Shown: piece after piece, positions 15,682-56,277 of the stretch
Layout of the letters: the number at the start of each line of letters is the position of its first letter
How positions within the stretch are numbered: position 1 is the first letter of the stretch
Origin: Thiosulfatihalobacter marinus
GTDB lineage: Bacteria > Pseudomonadota > Alphaproteobacteria > Rhodobacterales > Rhodobacteraceae
NCBI RefSeq assembly: GCF_016019955.1
Contig: NZ_JAECRZ010000005.1
Coordinates: forward strand, 1-64,000
Direction of reading: 5' to 3'
DNA length: 64,000 bases
The notes under the pieces: model-generated
The model's database searches: none
Told to the model about the DNA's origin: nothing
The model's input: the letters and a program-made list of their open reading frames with translations, nothing else
Made by a program: the position numbers and the translations under genes

Positions 15682-15757
<76 letters not shown>

Positions 15758-15816: not shown

Positions 15817-16803
15817 TCACTGATCACGCAGTCTCAGGGTGGCCGTGAAGCGATGCGTTTTTTGGTTTGATGGTTGGTCCGGATCGGCAAGAAGACCGAC
15901 CGCCCGTCGCGCCAAAGGCTCGACCGGGACCGCCACGGTTGTCAGGCCGTTGCCGATCCAACTATAGAATGACGGATCACCATAGCCGACAAACCCGAAT
16001 CCCTTGCCGCGCAGGGCGTCCCCTTCCATCAGCGCCTTGAGGGCGCCGCTGGACAGTTCGAACCCGCCACAGACAAGCGCCGTAGCCGCCCCCGTTTCCA
16101 GGAGCCGCGACACCTGGCTGTAGGCTCCGTCCAGCGTGGCGTCGCCGGTGAAAATCAGTTCCGGCGTGTCGGGCAGATTGGCCGCGCGTATGCCTTTCTG
16201 GAAAGCCGTCGCGCGGGCGCGGCCCGACGACAGGGCCTGATCGGCGCCGACATAGGCAATTCTGCTGTGGCCCTTCGCGACGAGATGGGCCACCGCGCCG
16301 GCGATGGCTTTGTCATCCTCGATTTGTACGGAAAAGTCGGGCGGGGGTGTGTCGCGGGTTCGGATCAGGTGCACGACTGTCATGTTGGCCGTTGCCGGCT
16401 GGCCCGGCAGCGGCGCGCCCGGCGCCGGGACCATTACCACGCCATCTGCCTGGATTTCCGACAGCCGCGCAAGCGCCATGGTCTCGGTCTCGGGATCGTC
16501 GCCGGTCAGATGAATGATCAGTTGCAGCGACGCGTCTTCGCAGGCCAGCGCCATGGCATTGGCAAAGCGGGCGTAGAATTCATTGACGATATTGGGCAGC
16601 AACAGGCCGACGATCCGGGTGCGACCGCCACGCATGGTGCGCGCGGCGGCATTGCGCACATAGCCAAGTTCGTGCGCGCGGCGCAGAACCGCGTCGCGAG
16701 TTGCCTTTTGCACATTGGGGTGCCCGGTAAGCGCGCGCGACACCGTCATGTGTGAAATCCCGAGGTCACGGGCTATGGACTTTATGGTTACGCGGCCCGA
16801 CAC
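15817..16803 (-). CDS. LacI family regulator of the kinase-enolase operon
   Basis: A 328-residue LacI-type repressor: helix-turn-helix at about residues 6-27 (ARDLGISHMTVSRALTG) and a periplasmic-binding-protein-like sensor domain (RIVGLLLPNIVNEFYARF, GHSRIAYVGADQ). The GTG at 16803 is chosen because the DNA-binding domain begins at once and an AGAAGGGG site lies upstream; the frame extends another 114 codons without family similarity. It is divergent from the kinase operon, with a perfect 16-base palindrome between them, so it very likely controls that operon. The sensor ligand is presumably the pathway substrate. Confidence 0.88.
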   Translation of the reverse strand: MSGRVTIKSIARDLGISHMTVSRALTGHPNVQKATRDAVLRRAHELGYVRNAAARTMRGGRTRIVGLLLPNIVNEFYARFANAMALACEDASLQLIIHLTGDDPETETMALARLSEIQADGVVMVPAPGAPLPGQPATANMTVVHLIRTRDTPPPDFSVQIEDDKAIAGAVAHLVAKGHSRIAYVGADQALSSGRARATAFQKGIRAANLPDTPELIFTGDATLDGAYSQVSRLLETGAATALVCGGFELSSGALKALMEGDALRGKGFGFVGYGDPSFYSWIGNGLTTVAVPVEPLARRAVGLLADPDQPSNQKTHRFTATLRLRDQ

Positions 16804-16879
16804 GATGCGCCCCTTCTTTTCCGCAGGAATAGCATTCCTGGCCGTCAGTGTCTTGACAGAAGTCCCGTGAAAACTGTAG

Positions 16880-16895
16880 ATGTTCACGTGAACAT
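16880..16895. promoter_or_regulatory. LacI-type operator
   Basis: ATGTTCACGTGAACAT is a perfect 16-base palindrome with the central CG usual for LacI-family sites. It lies 77 bases before the regulator start and just before the kinase ribosome site, which makes the kinase start at 16915 more likely than an upstream GTG at 16867. Confidence 0.75.
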
Positions 16896-16914
16896 TGCAA
16901 GGAGTTTTGCCGCT

Positions 16915-17925
16915 GTGTCCGATTTTGGCGACAAATGCGCGGGGTTGCTGGGGGAGCTTGGCATCGCGCGGGCCGATGAAATCCGCAAGGTCACGCCCCT
17001 GACAGGGGGTGTTGCCTCTGACATTGCGCGGGTCGATCTGGCGGATCGCGCGATTTGTGTGAAATTCGCGTTGCCCAAGTTGAAGGTGGCTGCTGACTGG
17101 CGCGCGCCGGTGCATCGAAACGCAGCGGAATACGCCTGGCTGCAAGTGGCGGCAAAGGTCTGCCCCGCGGCGTCGGTGGCATTATTTGGCCGGTCCGAGG
17201 CGCTGCATGGGTTTGCCATGGAATACGTGGCCGGCGCGGATGTGTACCTGTGGAAACAGGCGTTGCTGGAGGAGGCCCCGGACCGGGGCGAAGCCGGAGC
17301 GGTGGGCGACATGCTGGGCCGGATTCACCGGGCTTCGGCGGCGCGCGGATTTGATCGGACGGCCTTTGACAACCGGGATGATTTCCGGGCGCTGCGGATC
17401 GAACCGTACCTGACCTATACCACAGGGACGCACCCGGATCTGGCCGACAGGTTCGCCGCTCTGGAGGACATGCTTTTCCAGGCCGATGCCGTTTTGGTGC
17501 ATGGCGATGTCAGCCCCAAGAATATCCTGATGCGTGGCGCTGGTCCGGTAATGCTGGATGCGGAATGCGCCACCATGGGGGATGCCAGCTTTGATCTGGC
17601 GTTCTGCCTGAACCACCTTGTGCTGAAGGCGGTGCATTTGCCGGGCTCGCGCGATGGCCTGCTGGCGCGCGCCGGTCGGTTCTGGGCGGCCTATGCGGCT
17701 CATGTGGACTGGGAGGATGCCGCGGCGCTGGAGGCGCGGGTCTGTGCGCTGTTGCCGGGGCTGATGCTGGGGCGGGTCGATGGCAAATCGCCGGTCGAGT
17801 ACCTGCGGGAGGACGAACGGGAATTTGTGCGCGCGGCGGGGCGGGATCTTATGGGCGATCCGGCACCGACACTTGCGCGTTTTGCAGACAGATTGAAAGA
17901 CCGGATGAAGGGAATGACACAGTGA
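16915..17925 (+). CDS. aminoglycoside-phosphotransferase-fold small-molecule kinase
   Basis: A 336-residue APH/choline-kinase-like protein. Kinase motifs visible are the ATP-binding Lys in ICVKFALP (Lys50), the catalytic loop VLVHGDVSPKNIL (Asp198, Asn203) and the metal-binding Asp in VMLDAECATMGD (Asp215). The GTG at 16915 is preferred because AAGGAG stands at 16899-16904. It is first in a LacI-controlled operon with an enolase paralogue, FAH hydrolase and SDR, so it is more likely to phosphorylate a catabolic substrate (a hydroxy acid or sugar acid) than an antibiotic. The stop overlaps the next start. Confidence 0.8.
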   Translation: MSDFGDKCAGLLGELGIARADEIRKVTPLTGGVASDIARVDLADRAICVKFALPKLKVAADWRAPVHRNAAEYAWLQVAAKVCPAASVALFGRSEALHGFAMEYVAGADVYLWKQALLEEAPDRGEAGAVGDMLGRIHRASAARGFDRTAFDNRDDFRALRIEPYLTYTTGTHPDLADRFAALEDMLFQADAVLVHGDVSPKNILMRGAGPVMLDAECATMGDASFDLAFCLNHLVLKAVHLPGSRDGLLARAGRFWAAYAAHVDWEDAAALEARVCALLPGLMLGRVDGKSPVEYLREDEREFVRAAGRDLMGDPAPTLARFADRLKDRMKGMTQ

Positions 17926-19232
17926 CGGCAATTGCATCGGTAAAAGGTCGGCGGGTCTGGGATTCGCGCGGCAATCCGACAGTCGAGGTGGACGTTGTAC
18001 TGGAAAACGGCGTGCTGGGCCGCGCGATTGCGCCCGCCGGCGCGTCGCGCGGGACACGCGAGGCGATTGACCTGCGCGATGGCGGCGCGGCGCTGCGCGG
18101 CATGGATGTAAAGCGGGCGCTGGCCAGCGTGAACGGCCCGATTGCACATGCCTTGATCGGGCGCGACGTGGCGGATCAGGCGCGGGTGGACGCAGCCATT
18201 CTGGCGCTGGATGCCTCGCCGCTGAAAGAGAGCCTGGGGGGCAATGCCACGGTGGCGGTCTCGCTGGCGGTTCTGCACGCGGCGGCGGCGGATGCCCGAA
18301 GGCCGCTGTGGCGGCATGTGGCCGATCATTACGGCACGGACGCGTCGTTGCCCCTGCCGGAAATCCAGATATTCGGCGGCGGCGCCCATGCCGGGCGGCG
18401 TGTGGATATTCAGGATTTCATGATCATGGTGCCCGGCGCGCGGAATTTCGACGAGGTGATGGAAATTACCAGCGAGGTCTATTTCGCCGCCGGGGATATC
18501 ATGGCGCAAAAGGGCCGTATGGCCGGTGTGGCCGACGAAGGCGGCTGGTGGCCGGTGTTTGACAGCAACGAAGAGGCGCTGGAAACGCTGGTGGCCGCGA
18601 TTGAAAAGGCCGGGGAAAAACCGGGCGACCGGGTGGTGATCTCGTTGGATATTGCCGCGTCGGAATTTGGCAGCAAAGGCGCCTACCGGCTGGCGCTGGA
18701 AGATCGCTCCATGGACAGCGCCGCGCTGATCGACATGCTGGGGGGGTGGCTGGACGCCTATCCGATTGCCTCGATCGAAGACCCGGTGGGCGAAGACGAC
18801 GTGGCCGGCATGATCGAATTCACCCGCCGTTTTGGCGACCGGGTCCAGATCATCGGGGATGATTACCTTGTCACCAATGCCGCCCTGGTGGACGAGGCGG
18901 CGGAGGCCGGGGCGTGTAACGCGGTGCTGGTCAAGGTGAACCAGGCAGGAACCGTGACCGAAAGCGTCGAAACCTTCCTTGCCGCCCGTGCCAGGGGATG
19001 GGGGGCCATCGTATCGGCCCGGTCAGGTGAAACCGAGGATGTATCGATCAGCCACCTGTCCACCGGGCTGGGCGGCGGTCAGCTCAAGGTCGGGTCGTTT
19101 ACCCGGTCCGAACGCATGGTGAAATGGAACGAATGCCTGCGCATTCAGGACGACCTGGGGCAGGCCAGCTTTGTTGGCGGTGCACCCTTGGCCGCAACCT
19201 GGTGGGGCGCGAAACAGAAGGAAACAACATGA
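17922..19232 (+). CDS. divergent enolase paralogue (catabolic, substrate unknown)
   Basis: A 436-residue protein clearly homologous to glycolytic enolase over its whole length. It retains the metal ligands (Asp243, Glu286, Asp313), the catalytic base in LVKVNQAGT (Lys338), the acid in VADEGGWWP (Glu206), the Lys in GGQLKVG (Lys389) and His156. It departs where enolases are invariant: the SHRS loop reads SARS (His replaced by Ala366), GASTG reads GASRG, and QEFMI reads QDFMI. This suggests the fold acting on a different, perhaps larger, phosphorylated acid supplied by the kinase. GTG start, overlapping the kinase stop; the FAH gene overlaps its end. Automatic annotation as phosphopyruvate hydratase would probably mislead. 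Confidence 0.85.
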   Translation: MTAIASVKGRRVWDSRGNPTVEVDVVLENGVLGRAIAPAGASRGTREAIDLRDGGAALRGMDVKRALASVNGPIAHALIGRDVADQARVDAAILALDASPLKESLGGNATVAVSLAVLHAAAADARRPLWRHVADHYGTDASLPLPEIQIFGGGAHAGRRVDIQDFMIMVPGARNFDEVMEITSEVYFAAGDIMAQKGRMAGVADEGGWWPVFDSNEEALETLVAAIEKAGEKPGDRVVISLDIAASEFGSKGAYRLALEDRSMDSAALIDMLGGWLDAYPIASIEDPVGEDDVAGMIEFTRRFGDRVQIIGDDYLVTNAALVDEAAEAGACNAVLVKVNQAGTVTESVETFLAARARGWGAIVSARSGETEDVSISHLSTGLGGGQLKVGSFTRSERMVKWNECLRIQDDLGQASFVGGAPLAATWWGAKQKETT

Positions 19233-20077
19233 AACTGATGCGATACGGCGACCGGTACGGCGCCAAGACTCCCTGTTTGCTGGATAACGACGGCGTGGCG
19301 CGCGATGCCTCGTCGCTGGTGGGTGATTTTGGCCCGCGCAGCCTGGCCGGAGGGGCGCTTGACAAGCTGCGCGATGTGGACCCGGCCAGCCTGCCCAGGG
19401 CCGATATCGCGGGCAAGCGGCTGGCCCCGCCAGTGGCGCAGCCCTTCAATATCTGGTGTGTCGGTCTGAACTATTCGGATCATGCCGACGAGGCCGGTTT
19501 GCCGGTTCCGGACGAGCCGATCCTGTTCAACAAGTCCTCATCCACCTATTGCGGCCCGAATGACGATCTTCTTTACAGTCCGAAGATGACCAAGCTGGAT
19601 TGGGAAGTGGAACTGGGCATCGTGATCGGCAAGCCCGCGCTGAACATCGATCGCGCCGGGGCGATGGACCATATCGCGGGGTTCGTGCTGGTCAACGATG
19701 TGTCGGAACGCGCCTGGCAGATGGAACGGTCGGGTCAGTGGGTCAAGGGCAAGTCCTTTCCCAATTTCTGCCCCACCGGCCCCGTGCTGGTCACGCCCGA
19801 CGAGATCGGCGACGTGAACAGCCTGGGCATGTGGCTGGACGTGAACGGCACCCGGATGCAGACGGGCAATACGGGTACGATGATCTTTGATGTGGAAACC
19901 ATCGTGTCCTACATGTCGGAATTCACCCGGCTGGAACCGGGCGATCTGATCTGCACCGGTACGCCGCCGGGCGTGGGGGCCGGGATGGATCCGCAGGTCT
20001 GGCTGAAACCCGGCGACAGCGTGCGCCTTGGGATCGACGGGTTGGGTGAGCAGGTCCAGACCGTGGTGCATCTGTAG
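19229..20077 (+). CDS. fumarylacetoacetate hydrolase (FAH) family protein
   Basis: A 282-residue FAH-fold enzyme. Metal ligands are visible in LDWEVELGIVIG (Glu126, Glu128) and VNDVSER (Asp157), with GKSFPNFCPTGP resembling the segment found in 2,4-diketo-3-deoxy-fuconate hydrolases and related beta-diketone hydrolases. It would cleave a C-C bond of, or decarboxylate, a 2,4-dioxo acid. The ATG overlaps the enolase-like stop (ATGA), so translation is coupled. Together with the SDR downstream it recalls the last two steps of the L-2-keto-3-deoxyfuconate pathway. Confidence 0.88.
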   Translation: MKLMRYGDRYGAKTPCLLDNDGVARDASSLVGDFGPRSLAGGALDKLRDVDPASLPRADIAGKRLAPPVAQPFNIWCVGLNYSDHADEAGLPVPDEPILFNKSSSTYCGPNDDLLYSPKMTKLDWEVELGIVIGKPALNIDRAGAMDHIAGFVLVNDVSERAWQMERSGQWVKGKSFPNFCPTGPVLVTPDEIGDVNSLGMWLDVNGTRMQTGNTGTMIFDVETIVSYMSEFTRLEPGDLICTGTPPGVGAGMDPQVWLKPGDSVRLGIDGLGEQVQTVVHL

Positions 20078-20135
20078 GGCAGGGGCAAGCCGGGGGCCGT
20101 ACCAAGGGGCCTGGTGGGAAAGCAAAGGAAAACCG

Positions 20136-20888
20136 ATGAACTCTTACGATTTGAATGATCAGCGCGCCGTCATTACCGGCGGGGCGCGGGGAATGGGGCT
20201 GGGCATTGCCGAACTGTTCCTTGCTTCGGGGGCGAGCGTGTCTCTGTGGGATCTGAGCGGCGAGGCGCTGGCTACGGCCGCGCGCCACCTGAACGCCGCC
20301 GACCGGGTGGACACGCAAACCGTCGACGTGTCGGACTATGGGGCGGTCGAAACGGCCACGGCACGGGCAAGGGCCGCGATGGGTGGGATCGACATTCTGG
20401 TCAATGCGGCCGGAATCGCCGGAGGGAATATGCCGCTGGATAAGTATGATCTCGACCTGTGGAACCTGACTCAGAAAGTCAATGTGAATGGTATTTTCCA
20501 CACGTGTCGTGCGATCGTGCCGATCATGAAAGAGGGCGATTATGGCCGTATCGTCAATGTTTCGTCCATGGCCGGCAAGGACGGCAACCCCAACGCCAGC
20601 GCCTATTCGGTTTCCAAGGCGGCGGTGATTGCCATGACCAAGAGCCTGGGCAAGGAGCTTGCCACCACCGGGATTCGGGCCAATGTCATCACGCCGGCCG
20701 TGATCGAGACGCCGATGGTCAAGGATGTCACGGATGAGCAGTTGACATATATGCTGTCGAAAATCCCGATGGGGCGGATGGGCACGGTTGAAGAGATCGC
20801 GCGTCTGTCCGCTTGGTTGTGCAGCCGGGACTGCTCGTATTCCACCGGCGCCGTGTTCGATATTTCCGGCGGGCGGGCGACGTATTAG
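20136..20888 (+). CDS. SDR family oxidoreductase
   Basis: A 250-residue classical short-chain dehydrogenase. The cofactor motif is VITGGARGMGLGIA, followed by NAAGIAGG, the catalytic Ser in NVSSMAGKDG and YSVSKAAV (Tyr and Lys), and a C-terminal FDISGGRATY. An Asp-containing WDLSGE after the second strand suggests NAD rather than NADP. It is the last gene of the LacI-controlled kinase operon, 58 bases after the FAH gene, with AAAGGA upstream of the ATG. A likely job is oxidising a 2-keto-3-deoxy acid to the diketo substrate of the FAH enzyme; this is inference. Confidence 0.88.
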   Translation: MNSYDLNDQRAVITGGARGMGLGIAELFLASGASVSLWDLSGEALATAARHLNAADRVDTQTVDVSDYGAVETATARARAAMGGIDILVNAAGIAGGNMPLDKYDLDLWNLTQKVNVNGIFHTCRAIVPIMKEGDYGRIVNVSSMAGKDGNPNASAYSVSKAAVIAMTKSLGKELATTGIRANVITPAVIETPMVKDVTDEQLTYMLSKIPMGRMGTVEEIARLSAWLCSRDCSYSTGAVFDISGGRATY

Positions 20889-21013: not shown

Positions 21014-21742
21014 TCAGAATAGCAGCCGCACTGCCAGCAACACGAGGATCGCCATGATGACACGATCAAAGGCCTGTCTGGAAATCCGTCGCCCGAGAAG
21101 ATCGCCGATCGGCATTCCGAGAACCAGGGGCAGGATGGCAATCAGACCATAGAGCACCCGTTCCGGTGTCAAGATTCCGAGGGCCAGCTGGGTTGGCAGC
21201 TGAACCACGGCCATGGCCAGGAAATAGAGAGACATTACGGCTATGAATTGTCTGCGGTCGAATCCCACGGCATTCATGAAAGAGACGGATATTGGCGCCG
21301 ACAGCCCAACGGCGCCCTGAAAAATGCCGCCCAGCGCGCCGATCGGGATCACGATTTTGCGCGCGGTGGCCTGGGCAAGGTGCCAGCGCGGATTCCGCAG
21401 CCGAAAGAAAACATAGCCCAGGACAACAATCGCCAGTGTCTTGGTCAGGATCGCGCTGTCCAGACGGGCCAGCATTACAGTCCCGAATCCGGCCCCGGCC
21501 ATTGCGGCCAAGGCAAAGGACAGGGCGAAGCCCCGGCCAGGAAAGTCACGTCGGTAGCGAAAAACCTGCCAGCCGTTGGAGGCGAGGTTGGGCAGCAGGA
21601 ATACGGCCACCGCGAATGGCACGTCTACAAGGATCGACATGATCGGTACCGCCAGAAAAGGGGCGCCAGCCCCTGTGGCGCCCTTCAGAACCCCGCCCAA
21701 ACCGAATGCCAGGAAGACCAGCAGCAGGGTTTCAGGCGACAT
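21014..21742 (-). CDS. TSUP (TauE/SafE) family permease
   Basis: A 242-residue inner-membrane protein of the sulfite exporter TauE/SafE family with about eight hydrophobic segments. The duplicated family motif appears as FGLGGVLKGATGAGAPFLAVP near the N-terminus and GALGGIFQGAVGLSAP in the second half (each quoted in part). The ATG at 21742 is used; the further open frame starts with TTG. It ends the TAXI-TRAP operon (45 bases after the cupin). It probably moves an organic or sulfur-containing anion; direction and substrate are unknown. Confidence 0.82.
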   Translation of the reverse strand: MSPETLLLVFLAFGLGGVLKGATGAGAPFLAVPIMSILVDVPFAVAVFLLPNLASNGWQVFRYRRDFPGRGFALSFALAAMAGAGFGTVMLARLDSAILTKTLAIVVLGYVFFRLRNPRWHLAQATARKIVIPIGALGGIFQGAVGLSAPISVSFMNAVGFDRRQFIAVMSLYFLAMAVVQLPTQLALGILTPERVLYGLIAILPLVLGMPIGDLLGRRISRQAFDRVIMAILVLLAVRLLF

Positions 21743-21787
21743 CTGCCGCCCCAACCAGGGTGCGCTGTGGCCTGTTGCCCAAGCCCT

Positions 21788-22315
21788 TCATTTGGCATCG
21801 TTGAGCACGAACATGATCGTGCAGGGCTCTGTTCCCCGGTTGGACCAGGCGTGATTGGTGCCTTGCTGAATGACGACATCGCCGGCTTTCAGAAGAACGT
21901 CGTCCTCATCCATCAACATGTAGATCTCGCCGCTCAGGATGATGGAATAGTCCAGGCTGTCGGTCCTGTGCATGAAAGGGTGACGCGCGCCCTGCACGAC
22001 ATTGGCGCCTGCGCCCATTTCGGCAAAGGCGGTCGCGCCGTCGAGGGTGGCAAGGACCTCGGGGTTTTCGGGATCGAACTGGACAATCCGAAACACCGCC
22101 CCGTTTGCGGGAGGGTGCAATATCAGGGGGCCGGTCACCGGGTCTTCGTGTGTTTCCATCGGGGCGGGCGTTTGCGAGTGTTGCCAAAGATTGGTCAATG
22201 TCACGCCCGGTCGGTTCGGGCGTTGCAAGATGCAGGTCGCCTCTGAATCCATGATGACCCTGGCAATGCCGTTTTCGTCGTGACCGGTTACAACCCGTCT
22301 GAATTTCTGCGCCAT
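21788..22315 (-). CDS. cupin domain protein
   Basis: A 175-residue single-domain cupin. The barrel motif region reads RHPFMHRTDSLDYSIILSGE then AGDVVIQQGTNHAWSNRG, with His and Glu residues that can hold a metal. The start lies one base from the stop of the TRAP permease gene, so it is in the TAXI-TRAP operon. Comparable proteins are annotated as cupins in aromatic-acid or hydroxy-acid loci, but I cannot assign a reaction. Confidence 0.82.
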   Translation of the reverse strand: MAQKFRRVVTGHDENGIARVIMDSEATCILQRPNRPGVTLTNLWQHSQTPAPMETHEDPVTGPLILHPPANGAVFRIVQFDPENPEVLATLDGATAFAEMGAGANVVQGARHPFMHRTDSLDYSIILSGEIYMLMDEDDVLLKAGDVVIQQGTNHAWSNRGTEPCTIMFVLNDAK

Positions 22316-22316
22316 T

Positions 22317-24218
22317 TCACGCCTCCTTCTTTTTCGGGGTGGCTGCGCCACCGGCCTGTTCCGTGGGTCTGGTCGTGACCCAGATGACACCCAATCCCGC
22401 AAGTCCGGCCACATCGGATAACCACCCTTGATACAAGAGAGCCATTCCCGAAGCTCCGGCCAGAAGCCGCATGATCGGCGACAGCGGTGCTCGGGCATAG
22501 CCAACGACAGCCATGGCAATTCCGACAACGCCAATCCCGCCCGACAAGATCGCGCCCGCGATGCCGGGCAGGGAACCTGACAGCATCAGACCCGGCCCAA
22601 AGACAAACATGAACGGCAGGATGAACGACGTGATGCCATAGGCGAAAGCGGTCCAGCCCACGCGATTGATGTCTGCCCCGGCAATGCCTGCGGCGACGTA
22701 GGATGCAAGCGCGACAGGCGGGGTAATCGTGGACACGCAGCCATAAAAGAAGACGAACAAATGGGCCGTCAGCAGCGGGATACCCATTTTGGCCAGGGCC
22801 GGTGCCACCACCGTGGCAAGCACCAGATAGGCCGCCGTTGTTGGCAGGCCCATCCCGAGGATGATGGCGGTCAGCATCGTCAACAGAAGAGCGATAAAGA
22901 CAACCCCTCCGGAGGCTGAAACGATCAGACCTGATATCTTGGATCCCAACCCGGTAATCCCCAGCGTTCCGGCGATGATACCCGCCGCGGCGCAGGCGAT
23001 GGCAATCGGCACCACGGCCTTGGCGCCCTCCGTGACAGCCTTTGCCGATTTTGCGACCAGACTGCGATCTATCCTGCGGGTCCAGACGATATGGCATCCA
23101 AGAAGGATGAGGATGGAATAGAACGATGCCTTGAAGGGTGAAAAGCCGTTCAGCATCATGGCGATCAGCGTTGCAAACGGAATTATGAACTGTCCGCCCT
23201 TTACCAGAACCAGCCACAACGGTTCGTCATCTTCCCTGGCAGGGGGCGCTGGAACCAGCCCGCTTTTGCCCGCTTGCAGGTGGACAACGAACAGCAGGCT
23301 TGCAAAGAACAGCAATGCCGGCACCAAGGCCGCCTTCATGATATTGGCGTAGGGGGTGCCCACCACTTCGGCCATGATAAAGGCCGCCGCCCCCATTACC
23401 GGCGGCATGATCTGTCCCCCGGTTGACACGACCGCCTCGATCGCGCCTGCCTGATGCGGTTGGTAGCCTTCCCGTTTCATCATCGGGATGGTGAGCGTAC
23501 CGGTCACGGCAACGTTGCCGGCGGCAGAGCCAGAGATCATGCCCAACAGGGTGCTGAACAAAACGGCCGTCTTGGCGCCCGCAGCCCGCATGTTTTTCGT
23601 GGCGCGATTTGCCAGTTTGAAGAAAAAGTCTCCGGCTCCGAAATTGCTCAGGAAAGCGCCATAGATGGAAAACAGGATAATATAGGTTGATGATACCCCC
23701 AGCGGAATTCCAAAAACCCCCTGGCTGGTGGTGGTCAGAAACTCGGACATCCGGGTCAGGCTGTAGCCGCGCCCCTGAAGAATGCCGGGCAGGTATGGTG
23801 AATAGAACGGATAGGTAAAGAATACCACGCAGATGATCGCAAGAACCAGCCCGACGCCGCGCCGGGCGGCCTCCAGCACCAGGGCAATGACGACGACGCC
23901 TACCCATGCGTCCATGGGTACCGTTTCGCCACCGCTGAAGGCGATGTCCTTCCAGCGCGACATCAAATAGACAGAACTGGCAATGCTGATTGCGATCAGC
24001 GCAACGCGGGAAAGCTTGTCCACCGCTGAATCTGCGTATCGCTTTGCCGAGGGGCTCGCCAGAAACAGCAGGACCAGCATCATCATCAAATGAAAGATTC
24101 GGATGTCGCGTGTCGATAGTACAAACAGGCCGGAAACATTCAAAAGGTGAAATGTACCAACCGCAAAGGCCACGACAAGTATGGCACGGTCAAAAGCCTT
24201 ATCCATGGTTGCGAGCAT
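22317..24218 (-). CDS. TRAP transporter fused permease (DctQM-like, TAXI partner)
   Basis: A 633-residue inner-membrane protein with many hydrophobic segments, the fused small/large TRAP permease that works with TAXI-type binding proteins. Typical stretches are GAGDFFFKLANRATKNM, SGSAAGNVAVTGTLTIPMMK, AGAIEAVVSTGGQIMPPVMG and GMGLPTTAAYLVLA. The ATG at 24218 has a GGAG upstream; a second ATG lies at 24206. It follows the binding-protein gene after a hairpin-bearing gap and precedes the cupin by one base. It uses Na+ or H+ gradients to import a carboxylate. Confidence 0.92.
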   Translation of the reverse strand: MLATMDKAFDRAILVVAFAVGTFHLLNVSGLFVLSTRDIRIFHLMMMLVLLFLASPSAKRYADSAVDKLSRVALIAISIASSVYLMSRWKDIAFSGGETVPMDAWVGVVVIALVLEAARRGVGLVLAIICVVFFTYPFYSPYLPGILQGRGYSLTRMSEFLTTTSQGVFGIPLGVSSTYIILFSIYGAFLSNFGAGDFFFKLANRATKNMRAAGAKTAVLFSTLLGMISGSAAGNVAVTGTLTIPMMKREGYQPHQAGAIEAVVSTGGQIMPPVMGAAAFIMAEVVGTPYANIMKAALVPALLFFASLLFVVHLQAGKSGLVPAPPAREDDEPLWLVLVKGGQFIIPFATLIAMMLNGFSPFKASFYSILILLGCHIVWTRRIDRSLVAKSAKAVTEGAKAVVPIAIACAAAGIIAGTLGITGLGSKISGLIVSASGGVVFIALLLTMLTAIILGMGLPTTAAYLVLATVVAPALAKMGIPLLTAHLFVFFYGCVSTITPPVALASYVAAGIAGADINRVGWTAFAYGITSFILPFMFVFGPGLMLSGSLPGIAGAILSGGIGVVGIAMAVVGYARAPLSPIMRLLAGASGMALLYQGWLSDVAGLAGLGVIWVTTRPTEQAGGAATPKKKEA

Positions 24219-24231
24219 GTTGTCTCCGATC

Positions 24232-24257
24232 CGGGACGCCTGGCAAGCGGCGCCCCG
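24232..24257 (-). promoter_or_regulatory. hairpin between TAXI binding protein and permease
   Basis: In the minus-strand transcript CGGGGCGCC pairs with GGCGUCCCG through nine positions including one G-U, with an 8-base loop. It lies 27 bases after the binding-protein stop. Such hairpins commonly protect the upstream message or dampen readthrough, giving excess binding protein. Confidence 0.5.
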
Positions 24258-24284
24258 AAATGTCTGTTGCGGCATCGGCCAGAT

Positions 24285-25217
24285 CTATTTTGTGAAATAG
24301 GCGGCTGCGCCAGGGTGCAGCGGGATTTTCAATTCCAGGGACCGTTGAGGATCAATCTGGCGCGCATGGGCGTTTTCCGCCCGGAAGGCATCCAGATTGT
24401 CATAAATGGCTGCCGTGATCTTCATCGCCGTTTCGTCGCTCATGCTGGCGTCCACGATCAGCATGTTGTTGACACCCAGAAGCGCCCCGTCCGTGTCTGT
24501 GTTGTACACGTCAGCCGGGATGATCACCTTGTTGTAATTGGGGTATTTGGCCAGCGCGGCCTCGATATCGGCGTCTGACATCGGGATATACTTGAGCTTT
24601 GTGTTGGTTTGTGCCTGCATCACGGCACCCGCGGGATAGCCGCTGAGGGCAAAGGCAGCATCCACATTGCCGTCGGCAAGCTGGCTGAATCCGTCCGAGT
24701 AGCTCAGGAAGCTCGGCGTGATGTCGTCCATGGTCAGGCCCTGAAGGTCCAGAACCTGAGTCAGGAACGGAATTGTGCCGCCGCCTGCCGGGCCAACCGC
24801 CACGCGTTTGCCTTTCAGATCGGCAATGGAATTGATGCCGGACCCGTCCAGAGTCATCATGTGCAAGACACTGAAGTGCAGAGATCCGATCGCCCGCAGA
24901 TTCATCGGCCCGGCCTTTTTGTATGGGCCGACTCCCTTGTTGGCGAGAACCGCCAGATTGTTGTTGGTAATCGCGATGTCCACCTCGCCCGAGTTTACAA
25001 GGCGGGGGTTCTGCACCGACCCCTGTGTGACAACCGGAACCATGGTAAGGCCTTCGGCATGTTCATTCACCAGTGTCGAGATCGCCTGGCCCACCGGGTA
25101 AAATGCGCCGCCCTGGCTTGCCGTTCCGATTCTCAACTCTTCCGCCACCGTGCTGGTAGCTGCCAAAGCGGCAACCCCCAATGTCGCAACGCGCAAACCG
25201 TTTAGAATACTTTTCAT
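24285..25217 (-). CDS. TAXI family TRAP solute-binding protein
   Basis: A 310-residue periplasmic protein with a Sec signal peptide (residues 1-25, ending TSTVAEE). The TAXI signature is RIGTASQGGAFYPVGQAIS directly after it, followed by GKRVAVGPAGGGT. It captures a carboxylate or amino-acid-like ligand for the fused permease downstream. An ATCGAT-core site pair stands about 110 bases before the start, linking the operon to the local GntR regulon. Confidence 0.92.
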   Translation of the reverse strand: MKSILNGLRVATLGVAALAATSTVAEELRIGTASQGGAFYPVGQAISTLVNEHAEGLTMVPVVTQGSVQNPRLVNSGEVDIAITNNNLAVLANKGVGPYKKAGPMNLRAIGSLHFSVLHMMTLDGSGINSIADLKGKRVAVGPAGGGTIPFLTQVLDLQGLTMDDITPSFLSYSDGFSQLADGNVDAAFALSGYPAGAVMQAQTNTKLKYIPMSDADIEAALAKYPNYNKVIIPADVYNTDTDGALLGVNNMLIVDASMSDETAMKITAAIYDNLDAFRAENAHARQIDPQRSLELKIPLHPGAAAYFTK

Positions 25218-25573: not shown

Positions 25574-26782
25574 TCAAGGGCGGACCGAATTCAGAAGCGA
25601 GACGAATTCATCGTTTGTAAGGATGTCGCGTTTCTGAATGCCAAAGGCCTTGACCTTGTCCAAAAGCTCGGCGCTTTGTGCGTCGTTCAGTGCGGGCAGA
25701 CCCAGTTCTTCGACCTTGTAGGTGATCGACGCCTTGCCGCTTTTCTTGCCCAGTACAACCTCGCCGGTGCGCCCGGTCAGGGCGGGGTGGGTACCGAACA
25801 TCACCATCGGATCGTGCATCACGTATTGGATGCCGATACCGGATTCGCGGATGAAATTGCCATGGCCCAGCACCGGCTTGTTGCGGGCGATCGGGATATT
25901 GGACAACTCTGAAATCAGGGCTCCCAGTTCGGGCAGTTTGTCGAGCTTGTAATGCGTGTCGTACCCGTAAAGCAGGTGCAGCCCCAGCATCAGTTCTTCG
26001 AGTGCCGCGTTGCCCGTGCGCTCTCCCAATCCATTGGCGCAGCTGTGAACCACCTCGGCGCCGGCGGCCACGGCAGCGAGCTCAGTGGCAACGCCCATGC
26101 CGAAATCGTTGTGTGTGTGGATTTCGATCGGCAGGCCGGTCATGCCCTTGACCCAACCCACCATGTATTTGATCGCTTCCGGCGTGGCACAGCCCATCGT
26201 GTCGACGATCCCAATCGAATCCGGCGGGCTTTCGTTCATAATGCCCTTGCACAGGTTTTCCAGATCGTCGCGCCGCGCCCGTGTCGTGTCATAAGGGAAA
26301 AACACGGCATACAGGCCCTGTTCGCGCGCATAGTTGATCACGTCGCGGCTTTTCTTGAACACATCCTCCCAGGTCCAGCCAAACTGGGTCACAAGCTTCG
26401 GGTAGCCGATGGGCACCTCGATGATCACACCGTCCGCCCCGCATTCGAGCGCCATGTCGATGTCCTGTTTCATCGCCCGTGCAAAGGTGAATATCTTGGA
26501 TTTCAGCCCGAGGGCGGAGATTTCCTTGATGGCTTGCGCGTCCTGTGGCGATACGGCGGGCATACCTGCCTCGATCCGGTCGACGCCCACCTCATCCATC
26601 TTCGTGGCGATACGGACCTTGTCATCGATGGAAAAAACCACGCCCGGTGTCTGCTCGCCGTCGCGCAGGGTGGCGTCATGGATTTGAACTTGTGGCGGGA
26701 GAAGCAAAGACTCGCGGACTTCGGGCTGGAAATTATAGGGGCTGACCCACCATTTCCCCTCCTCGTAATGGTTTTCACGCAT
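25574..26782 (-). CDS. DRE-TIM metallolyase, homocitrate/isopropylmalate synthase-like
   Basis: A 402-residue TIM-barrel enzyme. The family head is HDATLRDGEQTPGVVFS with the metal Asp, and the metal His pair is in IEIHTHNDFGMG; a later GKKSGKASI matches the synthase C-terminal part. The length equals NifV-type homocitrate synthases, and it lacks the long regulatory domain of leucine-pathway LeuA. It would condense acetyl-CoA (or another acyl-CoA) with a 2-oxo acid. It stands alone, with an ATCGAT-type site 71 bases upstream, so it belongs to the catabolic island rather than to leucine synthesis. Confidence 0.85.
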   Translation of the reverse strand: MRENHYEEGKWWVSPYNFQPEVRESLLLPPQVQIHDATLRDGEQTPGVVFSIDDKVRIATKMDEVGVDRIEAGMPAVSPQDAQAIKEISALGLKSKIFTFARAMKQDIDMALECGADGVIIEVPIGYPKLVTQFGWTWEDVFKKSRDVINYAREQGLYAVFFPYDTTRARRDDLENLCKGIMNESPPDSIGIVDTMGCATPEAIKYMVGWVKGMTGLPIEIHTHNDFGMGVATELAAVAAGAEVVHSCANGLGERTGNAALEELMLGLHLLYGYDTHYKLDKLPELGALISELSNIPIARNKPVLGHGNFIRESGIGIQYVMHDPMVMFGTHPALTGRTGEVVLGKKSGKASITYKVEELGLPALNDAQSAELLDKVKAFGIQKRDILTNDEFVSLLNSVRP

Positions 26783-46899: not shown

Positions 46900-48384
46900 A
46901 TGAGCGGAACGCAGTTACTGGATGCAACCGGAATCGCCAAGAGTTTTGGCGCTGTTCGGGCATTGACCGAGGCAAGCCTGCATGTGTCGGAAGGTGAAAT
47001 CGTTGCGCTGATGGGCGCAAACGGGGCCGGAAAATCGACCTTTGTGAAAATCATTACCGGCGCCTTGCGCCCGGACAGCGGCACGGTGTTGATCCGGGGG
47101 CGCGAGGCGCGGGTGGGTAGCCCGGCGCAGGCGCGCCGTTCGGGGCTGGTACCGGTTTATCAGGAGCCATCGCTGATCCCGGATCTGGACGTGGCCGACA
47201 ATCTGCGCCTGACCGACACGCCTGTCGAGCCGTTCCGGCGCTGGGTGGAAGAGCTGGGAATCCGGCGACTGGCCCTGTCGGACATGATCGGGGATCTGCC
47301 GCTCGCGACCTTGCGCATACTTGATCTTGCGCGGGCTTTGGCCAGCGCGCCCGATGTGCTTTTGCTGGACGAGATGACGGCGGCACTGCCGACCGATCTG
47401 GTAGAGCGGGTGTTGAAGGTGATGCGCCAGAAGGCGGACGAGGGCATGGGTGTGATCTATGTGTCGCACCGGTTCGGCGAGATTTCCGAGTTGTGCGACC
47501 GCGCCACCGTGCTGCGGGACGGCATGTCGGTGGGCGATCTGAAGATTGAACCGGGGGTCGAGGACCGTGCCGTCGAATTGATGCTGGGCCAGAAACTGGA
47601 CCTGGCGGCGCGCGATATTCACAAGACGCGCGGCACGACAGGCGACAGGCCGCGGATGCGCGTGAAGGGTGTGGCGATTGCGCCAAAGGTGTCGGACATC
47701 TCGTTCGATCTATTCCCGGGCGAGGTGTTGGGGGTGGTGGCGCTGGAAGGGCAAGGGCAGGACGAGCTGTTCGAGTGCATGGCCGGGTTCATGCCGCCCA
47801 GGGCGGGCAGTATCGAGGTGAATGGCGTTGCGGCGGATTTCCGGCACCCGGCCGATGCCATTGCGGCGGGGGTGAAATTTGTCCCCGGAGACCGGGCCGA
47901 CGCGCTGTTGGCGCAGCGCTCGGTACGTGAGAATATCGCGTTGCCGTTTTCGGCGCGGATCCGCGCCTGGGGCGGGCTGAAGCTGCGCCATGAGCGTGCG
48001 CGGGTGGCGCATGCCATCGCACGTTTGCAGATCGACACCCGGGCGCAAGGCGAGGTGCAGCGCCTGTCGGGCGGCAACCAGCAGAAGGTGACGATCGGGC
48101 GCTGGTTGGCCACAGGGGTGGACACGTTGCTTTTGTTCGATCCGACACGCGGTATTGACGTGCGCACCAAGCGGCAGATCTATCCGCTGGTGCGCGAACT
48201 GGCTGAACAGGGCGCTTCGGTGCTTTTCTATACATCCGAGTTGGAGGAGATTCCGCTGGCCTGTGACCGGGCGGTTGTCATCTTCAATGGTCGCGTCGTC
48301 GACATCATCGACGCGGAAGTCGCCGACGAGCAGACCTTGTTGCGCGCGGCTTATGGGCTTGTGGCACAAGAGGGCGCGGCGTGA
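46900..48384 (+). CDS. sugar ABC transporter ATP-binding protein (RbsA-like, two domains)
   Basis: A 494-residue tandem ATPase. Domain 1 (residues 1-240) has Walker A LMGANGAGKST and Walker B VLLLDEMTAAL, but its signature region reads DLPLATLRILDLARAL, without a recognisable LSGGQ. Domain 2 has a degenerate Walker A (ALEGQGQDELFECM) yet an intact signature LSGGNQQKVTIGRWL and LLLFDPTRGID. One complete composite site would result, as in other ribose-type ATPases with unequal halves. The stop overlaps the first permease start. Confidence 0.92.
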   Translation: MSGTQLLDATGIAKSFGAVRALTEASLHVSEGEIVALMGANGAGKSTFVKIITGALRPDSGTVLIRGREARVGSPAQARRSGLVPVYQEPSLIPDLDVADNLRLTDTPVEPFRRWVEELGIRRLALSDMIGDLPLATLRILDLARALASAPDVLLLDEMTAALPTDLVERVLKVMRQKADEGMGVIYVSHRFGEISELCDRATVLRDGMSVGDLKIEPGVEDRAVELMLGQKLDLAARDIHKTRGTTGDRPRMRVKGVAIAPKVSDISFDLFPGEVLGVVALEGQGQDELFECMAGFMPPRAGSIEVNGVAADFRHPADAIAAGVKFVPGDRADALLAQRSVRENIALPFSARIRAWGGLKLRHERARVAHAIARLQIDTRAQGEVQRLSGGNQQKVTIGRWLATGVDTLLLFDPTRGIDVRTKRQIYPLVRELAEQGASVLFYTSELEEIPLACDRAVVIFNGRVVDIIDAEVADEQTLLRAAYGLVAQEGAA

Positions 48385-49322
48385 GCGGGATTATCAGGAA
48401 GAATGCCTGGGTGGCCGGGTTGCTGGCGCTTCTGGTTGTGCTGCTGGTCGCGACCAGGATGATCCAACCCGGTTTCGGAGTTTCCGGTCTGGAAAGCATT
48501 GCGCGCGCGGCGTTGCCGTTCGTTTTTGCCACGACCGGCATGGCGGTGGTGGTCATCGTCGGGGGGATCGATCTTTCTGTGGCTTCGATGATGGCGGTCT
48601 GTGCCGTGACGGCGGCGGTGCTGATGGAACGGATGGCCGGGGTGCCGGCGATCCTGATCGTATTGGCGTTGGGCCTGGCGATGGGGGTGATCAATGGCGG
48701 GCTGATCGTGGCAACGCGGGTCCCCGATATCGTGGTGACGTTGGCGATGCTGTTCGTCTGGGAAGGGGTGGCATTGCTGATCCTGGAATCCCCGGGAGGA
48801 TCGACCGCGGACTGGCTTCAGAAAAGCATTCGCGGCAGTTTCCTGATCCCGGGCCTGCCCAATGCGCTGGTGATCGCGACGGTCTGCATTGCGGTGGTCT
48901 GGTTGCCGATCCGGCGTGCGCGGCTGGGCATTGCCATTTATGCAACCGGATCGGATGAGCGGGCCGCGTTTCGTTCGGGCGTGGCGGTGGGGCGCACAAG
49001 GATCGCGGCCTATGGAATATGCGGGCTGTTCAGCGCCTTTGGCGGGCTGAGCCTGGCGGCGCTGACCGGTATCGGCGAGCCGGTGCCCGGCCCCTACCTG
49101 CTGGCCTCGGTCGCGGCGGTTGTGTTGGGGGGGGTGGTCCTGGGTGGCGGACGGGGCGGGTTGCTGGGCCCGATCATCGCGGTTTTCATCTTGAGGATCG
49201 TGCGAACGATCCTGACACTTTTGGCTGTGGACCCGAATGTCACGACCATCATTGAAGGCACGATCATGGTCGGTGTCGTGATGCTGGGCACCGCCGCCAC
49301 GATGCGGGGAGCAAGAACATGA
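48381..49322 (+). CDS. sugar ABC transporter permease (RbsC-like) 1
   Basis: A 313-residue inner-membrane protein with about eight to ten hydrophobic segments. Typical parts are GMAVVVIVGGIDLSVASMM, VNGLI-like INGGLIVATRVPDIVVTLAM and AIYATGSDERAAFRSGVAV. A GTG start overlaps the ATPase stop, and its own stop overlaps the next permease gene. It forms a heterodimeric channel with permease 2. Confidence 0.9.
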   Translation: MSGIIRKNAWVAGLLALLVVLLVATRMIQPGFGVSGLESIARAALPFVFATTGMAVVVIVGGIDLSVASMMAVCAVTAAVLMERMAGVPAILIVLALGLAMGVINGGLIVATRVPDIVVTLAMLFVWEGVALLILESPGGSTADWLQKSIRGSFLIPGLPNALVIATVCIAVVWLPIRRARLGIAIYATGSDERAAFRSGVAVGRTRIAAYGICGLFSAFGGLSLAALTGIGEPVPGPYLLASVAAVVLGGVVLGGGRGGLLGPIIAVFILRIVRTILTLLAVDPNVTTIIEGTIMVGVVMLGTAATMRGART

Positions 49323-50326
49323 GCATGGTTGTTACCGATCCCCCCCTGGTCCGGTTCGGGCGGTTCCTGCGGGACAATCCGGTCATTCCGCTTGTGGTGT
49401 TCCTGTTTGTGTTGGTGGCGGTTCTGGAGATCATGCGGCCCGGCATCGTCACGCCCTTCCGCGCCGGGCGCGACGGGGTGATCTCGACCTTCTGGCTGGG
49501 CAATCTGATCAAGTTCGCCATACCTCTGGCGATGCTCGCGGCCTGCCAGGTGCTGACGATGCTGACGGCGGGAATCGATCTGTCCGCCGGCATCGTGGCG
49601 ACGGTGGCGGCGTTTGTCTGCGCGACGCTGAGTTCGATCTGGGGGGTCGGGCCGGCGGTGGCGACCGCACTTCTCGCCGGGTTGGTCGTGGGGGTTGTCA
49701 ACGGGATCGGTGTGGGGCTGGTGCGGGTGCATCCGCTGATCATGACGCTGGGCACCGGGCTGATTGCGACCGGCGTTCTCCAGGTTTACCAGCGCCTTGT
49801 CATCAATGCCGGGTCGGAAATCCCCGGTTTCCTGACATGGCTGGGTACCGGGCGGACGCTGGCCATGCCGAACGGGTTGTTCCTGTTCGTGCCCTTTGCT
49901 TTGTTCATCTTCTGGCTGATGCGGTTTACCGGGTTCGGGCGTCTTCTGTTCGCGCTGGGCTCGAACGAGAATGCGGCCAAGCTGTCAGGGGTACGGGCAT
50001 GGCAGGTCTATGTCGCGCTTTATGCGTTGTCGGGGGTTATCGCGGCGCTGGCCGGGCTGTTGTATCTGGGGATCATCCGGCAAACATCGCTGAGTCTTGC
50101 CAACCCGCTGATGCTGCCGTCGGTGGCGGCGGCGGTGATCGGCGGCACGTCTATTTTTGGCGGACGGGGCAGCTATGCCGGGGCCATAGTGGGCGCGCTG
50201 ATCATCCGGGTGCTGGATACGATGCTGACACTGATGCAGATGCCCGAAGGCGCGCGCACGGTTCTGTTCGGGCTGATCATTCTTGCGGTGACCGCGATTT
50301 ACGTGCGGATCACGGGCAGCCGATAG
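49319..50326 (+). CDS. sugar ABC transporter permease (RbsC-like) 2
   Basis: A 335-residue membrane protein similar to permease 1: LTMLTAGIDLSAGIVATVAA, VNGIGVGLVRVHPLIMTLG and LFALGSNENAAKLSGV. An N-terminal stretch of about 35 residues precedes the first membrane helix. The start overlaps permease 1 by four bases, and a Gfo/Idh gene follows after 12 bases. Confidence 0.9.
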   Translation: MSMVVTDPPLVRFGRFLRDNPVIPLVVFLFVLVAVLEIMRPGIVTPFRAGRDGVISTFWLGNLIKFAIPLAMLAACQVLTMLTAGIDLSAGIVATVAAFVCATLSSIWGVGPAVATALLAGLVVGVVNGIGVGLVRVHPLIMTLGTGLIATGVLQVYQRLVINAGSEIPGFLTWLGTGRTLAMPNGLFLFVPFALFIFWLMRFTGFGRLLFALGSNENAAKLSGVRAWQVYVALYALSGVIAALAGLLYLGIIRQTSLSLANPLMLPSVAAAVIGGTSIFGGRGSYAGAIVGALIIRVLDTMLTLMQMPEGARTVLFGLIILAVTAIYVRITGSR

Positions 50327-50338
50327 AAGGAGAGCGCC

Positions 50339-51415
50339 ATGGCGAAATTTCGCGTTGCCGGAATAAGTTTTGACCACATGCACATGGGCGATTTGCTGCG
50401 CATGGTGCACGCGCATCCTGAGGCCGAGATCGCTGGCTTGTATGACCCGGACCGCGCCCGGATGCAGGCGGCAATTGACGCTTTTTCAGTTCCCGAGGAC
50501 CGCGTTTTCACGGATTTCGACGCCTGCATGGCGGCGGGTCCATACGACATGGCATTGCTGTGCGCGGCCACGGCCGACCATGCCGCATATACAGAGAAAT
50601 TGGCGCCGCATGGCGTGCACGTGTTTGTGGAAAAACCGTTCGCGGCTTCTGCGGAGGACGCGCGGCGCATGATCGCGGCAATGGAGGGGACGGGCAGGCA
50701 GCTGGTGATCAACTGGCCTCTGCGCTGGGTGGAAAGCCACGTCACCGCCAAGCGTCTGATCGACGATGGCCTGATCGGCGAACTGCGCGAGGTGCATTTC
50801 TATGACGGCAATCGTGGGCCCTTGTACCATCTTGCCGACAAGATCGAGGTCAGTGCGGAAGATGTAGAGCGCCAGAAGCAGTCAAGCTGGTGGTACAAGA
50901 AAGCATCGGGCGGTGGCGCCCTGCTGGACTATATGGGGTATGGCGCGACGTTGGGCACGTGGTACATGAATGGACAGGCCCCGCTGGAAGTCACATGTTG
51001 CGTGGATGAAACGCCGGGCATAGAAGTGGATCAGCACGCCATTGCCGTGTGTCGCTATGCTCGCGGCCTGTCCAAGATGGAAACGCGTTGGGGCACCTTC
51101 ACCGATCCGTGGACAATACAACCGCAGCCGACCTGCGGGTTTGTCTTCGTCGGTACGGACGGCACGATCTCGTCCCCGGATTACGCGACCCATGTGACCG
51201 TGCAGACCCGCGTCCGCCCCGAGCGACATGAGATCCCCGCTGACCCGCTGCCCGAAGGTGCGCGCAATGCCATCGAGTATGTCCTGGGCTGTCTGCGACG
51301 TGGCGACCGTGTCAAGGGGCCGCTGGATCCGGCGCTGTGCCTGATCGCGCAGAGGATTGTCGATACCGCCGTGCGGTCCGCCGCGGAAAAACGCACGTTG
51401 AAGCTTTTGCCATGA
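50339..51415 (+). CDS. Gfo/Idh/MocA family oxidoreductase
   Basis: A 358-residue member whose Rossmann domain lacks the usual GxGxxG and instead begins VAGISFDHMHMGDLL, as seen in a GFO subgroup; the EKP motif is present in VFVEKPFAAS. The substrate domain has ASGGGALLDYMGYGATLGTW. It comes directly after the ABC permeases and overlaps the next oxidoreductase gene by four bases. The unusual nucleotide-binding loop means the cofactor should be checked. Confidence 0.85.
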   Translation: MAKFRVAGISFDHMHMGDLLRMVHAHPEAEIAGLYDPDRARMQAAIDAFSVPEDRVFTDFDACMAAGPYDMALLCAATADHAAYTEKLAPHGVHVFVEKPFAASAEDARRMIAAMEGTGRQLVINWPLRWVESHVTAKRLIDDGLIGELREVHFYDGNRGPLYHLADKIEVSAEDVERQKQSSWWYKKASGGGALLDYMGYGATLGTWYMNGQAPLEVTCCVDETPGIEVDQHAIAVCRYARGLSKMETRWGTFTDPWTIQPQPTCGFVFVGTDGTISSPDYATHVTVQTRVRPERHEIPADPLPEGARNAIEYVLGCLRRGDRVKGPLDPALCLIAQRIVDTAVRSAAEKRTLKLLP

Positions 51416-53291: not shown

Positions 53292-53294
53292 TGA

Positions 53295-53969: not shown

Positions 53970-53975
53970 GTTCCT

Positions 53976-54758: not shown

Positions 54759-54782
54759 GCTGGCCTCCCTGAGATGTGTCTC

Positions 54783-54797
54783 ATGAGACGGTCTCAT
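54783..54797. promoter_or_regulatory. GntR-type operator in the divergent gap
   Basis: ATGAGACGGTCTCAT is a perfect palindrome around a central G, 25 bases before the SDR start. It matches the size and plan of sites bound by FCD-type GntR dimers, and the GntR gene is in the operon that starts here. Confidence 0.65.
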
Positions 54798-54803
54798 TTC
54801 AGG

Positions 54804-54833
54804 TACTACTTGTCAAATGTAAAATACTACTTG
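54804..54833. repeat. TACTACTTG direct repeat in the divergent gap
   Basis: TACTACTTG occurs at 54804-54812 and 54825-54833, exactly 21 bases apart (two helical turns). It overlaps an inverted repeat CATTTCAGGTA/TACTTGAAATG (54795-54805, 54828-54838). These are probably extra regulator contacts or promoter elements for the ABC operon. The rest of the 225-base gap shows no gene. Confidence 0.5.
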
Positions 54834-54983
54834 AAATGAAAACAAATCCCACTTAACGATTCTGGCGTGGCGCCGGGAATCACCGAAATCCGGTGGTGCA
54901 ACAAGAGCTGAACAGCCGCCGCCGGGGGGATAGCGCCCATGGGGCGCGACGGTTTGGCGAAATCGAAACGGGAGGAAAACCAG

Positions 54984-56261: not shown

Positions 56262-56277
56262 GCTCTCCCACGTTGCT

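Follow-up and report, generated by a model that had tools for sequence, protein, structure and literature searches.

A conserved pair of a kinase and an enolase paralogue, apparently set within a sugar pathway of Thiosulfatihalobacter marinus

We analysed a 64,000-nucleotide stretch of the Thiosulfatihalobacter marinus genome (contig NZ_JAECRZ010000005.1, positions 1 to 64,000; hereafter the window) that contains a LacI-controlled operon for a small-molecule kinase, a paralogue of enolase, a protein of the fumarylacetoacetate hydrolase (FAH) family and a short-chain dehydrogenase/reductase (SDR), its gene content and coordinates being those given in an earlier note on this DNA. The kinase and the enolase paralogue form a real and conserved enzyme pair, apparently not described before, inside a sugar pathway of a largely known kind. 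Window positions 52,551–61,151 hold the missing half of that pathway, which the first reading overlooked. We give close to an even chance to the proposal that the two clusters together encode a non-phosphorylative sugar pathway in which the pair acts after the FAH enzyme and takes glycerate, with the L-form favoured, to phosphoenolpyruvate (PEP). The position of the pair after FAH is on balance probable, the assignment of L-glycerate is our leading guess, and the substrates, the order of steps and the stereochemistry set out below are those that we infer.

The four genes lie on the forward strand at 16,915–17,925 (kinase), 17,922–19,232 (enolase paralogue), 19,229–20,077 (FAH) and 20,136–20,888 (the SDR, designated SDR-B), so that 4 bp are shared by kinase and paralogue and again by paralogue and FAH, and 58 bp separate FAH from the SDR gene. 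The most likely kinase start is the GTG at 16,915, behind an AGGAG at 16,900–16,904, within a longer open reading frame from 16,867. The regulator gene is divergent (15,817–16,806, reverse strand; PF00356 and PF13377), and 26 of the 80 related loci introduced below likewise have a divergent LacI orthologue upstream of their kinase gene. The stretch from lacI to the ribosome-binding site of the kinase contains, at 16,881–16,894, the operator TGTTCACGTGAACA, an exact 14-bp palindrome; the coordinates and an operator scan thus agree with the earlier description of four overlapping or nearly abutting genes behind a perfect LacI palindrome. This operator is the sole match in the window at two or fewer mismatches (one or more such matches arose in 11 of 100 shuffled sequences), and the window's genome contains one exact site and five further places at two mismatches. 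The lacI–kinase gap of 28 relatives with a divergent LacI holds the operator exactly in 24 and with one mismatch in three, the last relative (L105) having a one-mismatch version that is not a perfect palindrome, and this recurrence at the same place indicates more than chance. Genome-wide searches of 26 genomes found one to four sites each at one or no mismatch. In L044, L055, L066, L070, L086, L128 and L168 a sugar ABC operon is preceded by an extra site with at most one mismatch, as it is at a distance of about 1 kb in L169, and L128 and L130 have such a site in front of a tripartite tricarboxylate transporter; no site was found in L087, which has no LacI in the stretch examined. Further sites before transporter operons point to a regulon that joins import of a sugar or sugar acid to this pathway.

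The distribution of the genes singles out the kinase and the enolase paralogue. A scan of one genome per species yielded at least 568 confirmed kinase relatives, and our locus counts are made on the best 80 of these at least 568, which, being best-ranked, lean to close relatives and in which some genes are mis-called. The paralogue is present in 77 of the 80 loci, directly adjacent on the same strand in 64 and further off in 13; among the three loci that lack it, L089 lies where its contig ends, and the genomes of L094 and L101 have a second enolase, by search match, outside the fetched stretch. An FAH gene (at least 60% identity) follows the enolase in 25 loci and the SDR (at least 45%) is present in 25, with all four genes together in 20 and the four plus LacI in 18. 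Because an FAH of the diketo type follows in only 25 of the 80 loci, we regard the kinase–enolase pair as a unit of its own. Linkage of all four genes, on which the earlier note made its proposal depend, is conserved only in part: the pair is found in 77 of the 80 loci and the complete set in 20.

A survey of 198 genomes of the family gave a kinase match in 29, ten of them strong (the window's own genome and nine others, E 4e-88 or better) and 19 weak (E 6.5e-7 or worse). All nine fetched stretches from the other strong genomes, eight of which are very probably the same genomes as loci of the species-level scan, contain the enolase paralogue at 61–86% identity, next to the kinase in eight and 7.5 kb away on the opposite strand in the ninth (L037). 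In an even phylum sample the kinase (E 1e-20 or better) occurred in 7 of 299 genomes, including the window's own and one of the same genus, which indicates a widespread but sparse system. Annotated plasmids carry kinase and enolase together in the haloarchaea Haladaptatus and Halomarina and in Rhodococcus (two plasmids), Methylobacterium, Sphingobium, Roseibium and Paracoccus, and a Rhizobium sp. N324 plasmid carries them 4.3 kb apart; each of these nine annotated clusters has the paralogue under the name phosphopyruvate hydratase or enolase. The pair is also adjacent in Persicobacter (Bacteroidota). On the haloarchaeal plasmids (L124, L131) its neighbours include several dehydratases of the mandelate-racemase family, an IlvC-like gene, SDRs and cupins, in what looks like an archaeal sugar-acid island. 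Certain loci of Rhizobium, Rhodococcus and Sphingobium (L126, L127, L133, L134) combine the pair with an HpaD-like dioxygenase (L133) or a VOC protein, an alcohol dehydrogenase, a cupin and FAH, and most of them add a carboxymuconolactone-decarboxylase-like protein, as though an aromatic-type pathway used the same pair.

Enolase is among the most conserved of metabolic enzymes and is usually credited with a single reaction. The window's paralogue matches Pfam PF00113 and PF03952 and passes the cut-off of the NCBIfam glycolytic enolase model (TIGR01060, 443.8 against 300 bits). Residues D243, E286, D313, K338, R367 and S368 are kept in it and in the full-length rows of its family, E206 and K389 are also kept, and it reads GASR, QDFMI and SARS where canonical enolase has GAST, QEFMI and SHRS. 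The retained residues and replacements quoted in the earlier note are all as stated there, with the qualification that GASRG, offered as a mark of the paralogue, is present in the window protein but is not family-wide, many members having GAST or GASK. Exactly three positions, E165D, G204A and H366A, separate all 91 paralogue rows from all 38 canonical rows, rows of 350 amino acids or fewer and the divergent locus L125 being excluded, five of the 91 (L196–L200) repeating counted genes and one of the 38 probably being a repeat; six further positions nearly separate the two groups. Canonical rows were picked by the motif SHRSGE, so the histidine count at position 366 is partly by choice: 37 of 42 fetched loci had SHRSGE, and the other five, all at 302–319 bits, were assigned to the paralogues. 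The three changes are common to haloarchaeal, Actinobacteria and Bacteroidota members, and in a tree of 42 paralogue and 22 canonical rows, selected from the 91 and 38, all 42 paralogue rows fall on one side of a branch with a Shimodaira–Hasegawa-like approximate likelihood ratio test (SH-aLRT) support of 100. The arginines of GASR and HAGRR, considered as marks of an extra carboxylate on the substrate, were rejected in that role: they are frequent near the window, but distant members have GAST, HARGG and other sequences.

In the enolase of Chloroflexus, whose numbering coincides with that used here, contacts to 2-phosphoglycerate are made by Glu165, Glu206, Lys338, Arg367 and Ser368 (excerpt of PMC4450660), and the catalytic residues listed for yeast enolase in an extract of PMC4922564 are E168, E211, K345 and K396. 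The paralogue, whose predicted structure has a mean pLDDT (predicted local distance difference test) of 86.8, keeps all of these contact residues but Glu165, so that the phospho-carboxylate end of the site and the base are kept and the leaving-group side is changed. Positions 204 and 366, G209 and H373 in the yeast enzyme, are placed on that side in part from general background on enolase, the role of His373 included. A more remote arrangement is seen on an Enterobacter plasmid (L125, 10,277–12,939), where a distant kinase homologue (33%) and an enolase-like protein (36%, annotated as hypothetical) are encoded side by side in divergent orientation. The enolase-like protein has Lys at position 206, where enolase has its general-acid Glu, and of the three fixed changes it has the Asp of QDF alone; the neighbours there look biosynthetic (U32 peptidase, aminotransferase, nucleotidyltransferase, MFS).

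A canonical enolase is encoded on another contig of the window's genome (446.9 bits, against 287 for the paralogue), the two copies being about 43% identical. The ten strong kinase-positive family genomes, the window's own included, have two enolases each, whereas all 11 kinase-negative genomes searched have one. Likewise, all 25 genomes of named loci have a canonical enolase (408–449 bits) and at least one lower-scoring enolase match, which in L076's genome lies in two pieces at contig ends; one of the 25 was probably counted already, as G245 shares coordinates with G059. Every kinase-positive genome checked thus has a canonical enolase as well, in agreement with the earlier proposal, and this copy, the separate tree group, the fixed active-site changes and the kinase linkage uphold the view that the homologue is not a spare glycolytic enolase. 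It resembles the glycolytic enzyme in fold family, metal ligands, Lys338, Arg367, Ser368, Lys389, Glu206 and a profile score above the cut-off, and differs from it in the fixed E165D, G204A and H366A, in being an additional copy and in its linkage to an APH-fold kinase. We would put at somewhat below an even chance the claim that these proteins form an enolase subfamily that does not use 2-phospho-D-glycerate and that, with the kinase, makes PEP from 2-phospho-L-glycerate or another 2-phospho acid that bears a different C3 group. It is unlikely that the two are ordinary isozymes under common regulation with a sugar pathway, the one a new kind of 2-kinase for D-glycerate and the other a second enolase for 2-phosphoglycerate. 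The enolase-model score, well above its cut-off, and, in Rhizobium sp. N324, genes for a PEP carboxylase and for an enzyme of the D-2-hydroxyacid dehydrogenase type close to the kinase would suit such a duplication. Against it speak the three substitutions, which split 91 of 91 paralogue from 38 of 38 canonical rows, the presence of a canonical enolase in each genome checked, and a MOFRL-domain glycerate kinase elsewhere in the window's genome.

The kinase, a proposed hydroxy-acid 2-kinase, has the APH fold (PF01636, 68.3 bits), and the HGD-x-S-x-x-N and D-x-E motifs of the APH phosphotransferase family are intact in it and present in 91 of 93 kinase rows. Its AlphaFold model (pLDDT 91.8) is nearest in fold to methylthioribose kinase, which is also its best solved relative by sequence (37 bits); it is nonetheless unlike that enzyme, scoring 43.9 bits where the cut-off for the family is 275, at about 15% identity. 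The window kinase matches PF01636 and neither PF02595 nor MOFRL, and so lies outside the class I and class II glycerate kinases, while those of class III are related to phosphoribulokinase and uridine kinase according to an excerpt of PMC2063504. With classes I, II (MOFRL) and III it would share ATP-dependent phosphorylation of glycerate, its proposed reaction, and it differs from all three in its APH/methylthioribose-kinase fold.

The other half of the pathway begins, on the reverse strand, with a GntR/FCD regulator (52,551–53,291; PF07729, PF00392), an RraA-like protein (53,295–53,969; PF03737) and a second SDR (SDR-C, 53,976–54,797; PF13561), for which context alone proposes a role as sugar 1-dehydrogenase. 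It continues on the forward strand with a CUT1-type sugar ABC system, made up of a solute-binding protein (54,984–56,261; PF13416), permease 1 (56,346–57,272; PF00528), permease 2 (57,265–58,173) and a MalK/UgpC-type ATPase (58,186–59,283; PF00005, PF17912), and ends with an IlvD/EDD sugar-acid dehydratase (59,370–61,151; PF00920, 334.9 bits), the proposed maker of a 2-keto-3-deoxy acid. These genes are tied to the operon by a relative of the same genus (L220), where LacI, kinase, enolase, FAH and SDR are followed by GntR and SDR-C in the opposite orientation and then by the ABC genes for sugar import and a dehydratase of the IlvD type. Seven of the eight second-cluster genes are 73–92% identical to their L220 counterparts (GntR 79%, SDR-C 73%, solute-binding protein 89%, permeases 84% and 92%, ATPase 89%, dehydratase 76%); the exception, RraA, has no match there and is 82% identical to a protein beside the module in L087. 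Relatives of the solute-binding protein (55–89% identity) occur in 15 of 97 loci. The window's IlvD family, at 72–76% identity, is found within the module operon in 4 of the 80 loci (L048, L065, L083 and L087), L048 adding a DgoD-type dehydratase and a DapA-like aldolase.

With an IlvD sugar-acid dehydratase present, dehydration of the sugar acid needs neither kinase nor enolase, and the pair is placed most simply after FAH. In the order of the earlier note the kinase and the paralogue act instead before SDR and FAH; C2 of the sugar acid would be phosphorylated and the product dehydrated to the enol phosphate of a 2-keto-3-deoxy acid. Room for a larger C3 substituent could be provided by D165 and A366, both smaller than the canonical residues, and the window's IlvD family occurs in only four of the 80 module loci, a count that leaves aside other dehydratase families, which were not searched systematically. 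Against this, the window encodes an IlvD sugar-acid dehydratase, and five relatives have one with the module, four of them in the same operon; an enzyme that releases the enol phosphate would be needed, and none was recognised in the gene lists, in which no search was aimed at one; and a diketo-type FAH follows in only 25 of the 80 loci. We consider that order quite unlikely.

The FAH protein is closest to L-2,4-diketo-3-deoxyrhamnonate hydrolase (257 bits to PDB 8gsr) and is a proposed 2,4-diketo-3-deoxy acid hydrolase; it falls below the equivalog cut-off for 2,4-didehydro-3-deoxy-L-rhamnonate hydrolase (NF053535, 352.6 against 500 bits). Its His85 and Glu88 have the spacing of the catalytic His83–Glu86 pair in an extract of PMC6336799. 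SDR-B (PF13561) is a proposed 2-keto-3-deoxy acid 4-dehydrogenase from context only: its orthologues stand beside the module in relatives, its closest named families are generic, and no named 4-dehydrogenase is among its closest families or structures. In the proposed pathway the ABC system would import a sugar, SDR-C would oxidise it to the sugar acid and the IlvD-type enzyme would dehydrate this to a 2-keto-3-deoxy acid, whose C4 SDR-B would oxidise. FAH would then hydrolyse the product to pyruvate and a 2-hydroxy acid, glycerate in the case of a hexose with a free 6-hydroxyl; the kinase would transfer a phosphate to the 2-hydroxyl of that acid, and elimination of the C3 group from the resulting 2-phospho acid by the enolase paralogue would give PEP. 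Known diketo-hydrolase (Route III) pathways yield pyruvate with lactate or glycolate from a deoxyhexose or a pentose, according to part of PMC6336799, and by the same chemistry a hexose should give glycerate. The proposed pathway resembles those for L-rhamnose, L-fucose and pentoses in its sugar ABC importer, SDRs, sugar-acid dehydratase, FAH hydrolase and pyruvate product, and differs from Route III as given in that source in the added kinase and enolase paralogue, which would assimilate the second product.

D-glycerate could be handled by the MOFRL glycerate kinase and canonical enolase that the genome has, whereas L-glycerate would need at least a new dehydratase; for this reason we favour a sequence from L-glycerate through 2-phospho-L-glycerate to PEP. 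L-sugar acids give L-configured three-carbon products, for example L-glyceraldehyde from L-2-keto-3-deoxygalactonate (L-KDGal; excerpt of PMC11219438). In Rhizobium sp. N324 a single gene, of the hydroxyacid-dehydrogenase type, separates the kinase from an upstream gene for PEP carboxylase, an arrangement that fits PEP production.

Several observations weigh against the two-cluster pathway or against the L-form. The clusters are 32 kb apart, and the second (52.6–61.2 kb) has no copy of the operator at two or fewer mismatches. Another IlvD-type dehydratase of the window's genome, on a different contig (C11:27186-28964, locus L230) near an ABC system, is 77% identical to the L220 enzyme; as the two are of equal similarity, only gene neighbourhood decides which copy serves the pathway. 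The genes that we examined in the two clusters of the window include no lactonase, a statement that covers those clusters and not the genome, which was not searched for one. SDR-B and SDR-C have their proposed roles by context, and the extradiol-dioxygenase and other aromatic-type genes of some module clusters are left unexplained by a sugar scheme. Three characterised class II (MOFRL) glycerate kinases act on L-glycerate at 13–34% of the D rate (excerpt of PMC2063504), so that a special kinase would not be strictly needed, which slightly lowers our estimate. Rhizobium, Rhodococcus and Halomarina have, close to the module, a gene of the C-terminal-binding-protein type, from the D-2-hydroxyacid dehydrogenase family. 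Dehydrogenases of that family are stereospecific, and such neighbours suggest a D-configured acid. Lys338, the base for the D-series proton, is kept, which better fits a D-configured C2 carrying a different C3 group.

A different C3 group could, for example, be the sulfonate of 3-sulfolactate, with 2-phosphosulfolactate split to PEP and sulfite, or belong to a 3-O- or 3-amino-substituted acid. The three fixed changes all lie on the leaving-group side, if A204 and A366 are positioned correctly; ComA makes phosphosulfolactate from PEP and sulfite (extract of PMC5695019), and the reverse would be sound chemistry; and a TauE/SafE-family exporter gene stands directly after the SDR (21,014–21,754). 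However, no homologue of the exporter was found among 1,265 called locus proteins (phmmer), in the 80 loci (tblastn) or in L220. For this reason the exporter gene was dropped as a pathway part and the sulfolactate idea is retained only as a low rival; substitution of the C3 group in general strikes us as improbable, and conversion of L-glycerate by the pair remains the preferred assignment.

Among the papers listed by our searches of the open-licence literature there was none on the kinase–enolase set or on an L-glycerate kinase, nor any described pathway with the kinase, enolase paralogue, FAH and SDR combination, in line with the earlier claim of novelty. If the proposed assignment is true, this would be, to our knowledge, the first two-metal enolase in catabolism to act on a different substrate, and the route from L-glycerate to PEP would be the first dedicated one. 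It would also mean that an enzyme of central carbon metabolism, found in Bacteria and haloarchaea with its own kinase and operator, has been mis-annotated, and it would explain how the second product of diketo-hydrolase sugar pathways is recovered. The paralogue offers a natural test of the residues that set the stereochemistry and leaving group of enolase.

Two neighbouring genes may tentatively be counted with the system, both on the reverse strand: a cupin (21,788–22,390; PF07883), whose family occurs in 11 of the 80 loci (eight proteins by phmmer), and a TRAP-TAXI transporter with fused permease and binding protein (22,317–25,217; TIGR02123, TIGR02122). A TRAP-TAXI system near LacI and the module is also found in L044, the sole locus of the 80 with both. 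Upstream of the TRAP-TAXI operon lies a gene for an HMGL-like enzyme of the isopropylmalate/homocitrate synthase group (25,574–26,782), which scores at best 335 bits, under the cut-offs of the 25 families shown; it has no match in the 80 loci and was dropped as a pathway part. A tRNA-Ala (GGC) gene at 15,682–15,757 adjoins lacI. Finally, positions 46,900–52,527 look on inspection like a sugar ABC system of the ribose type, after which come two Gfo/Idh/MocA oxidoreductases; the group ends beside the GntR–RraA–SDR genes and probably belongs to another sugar pathway.

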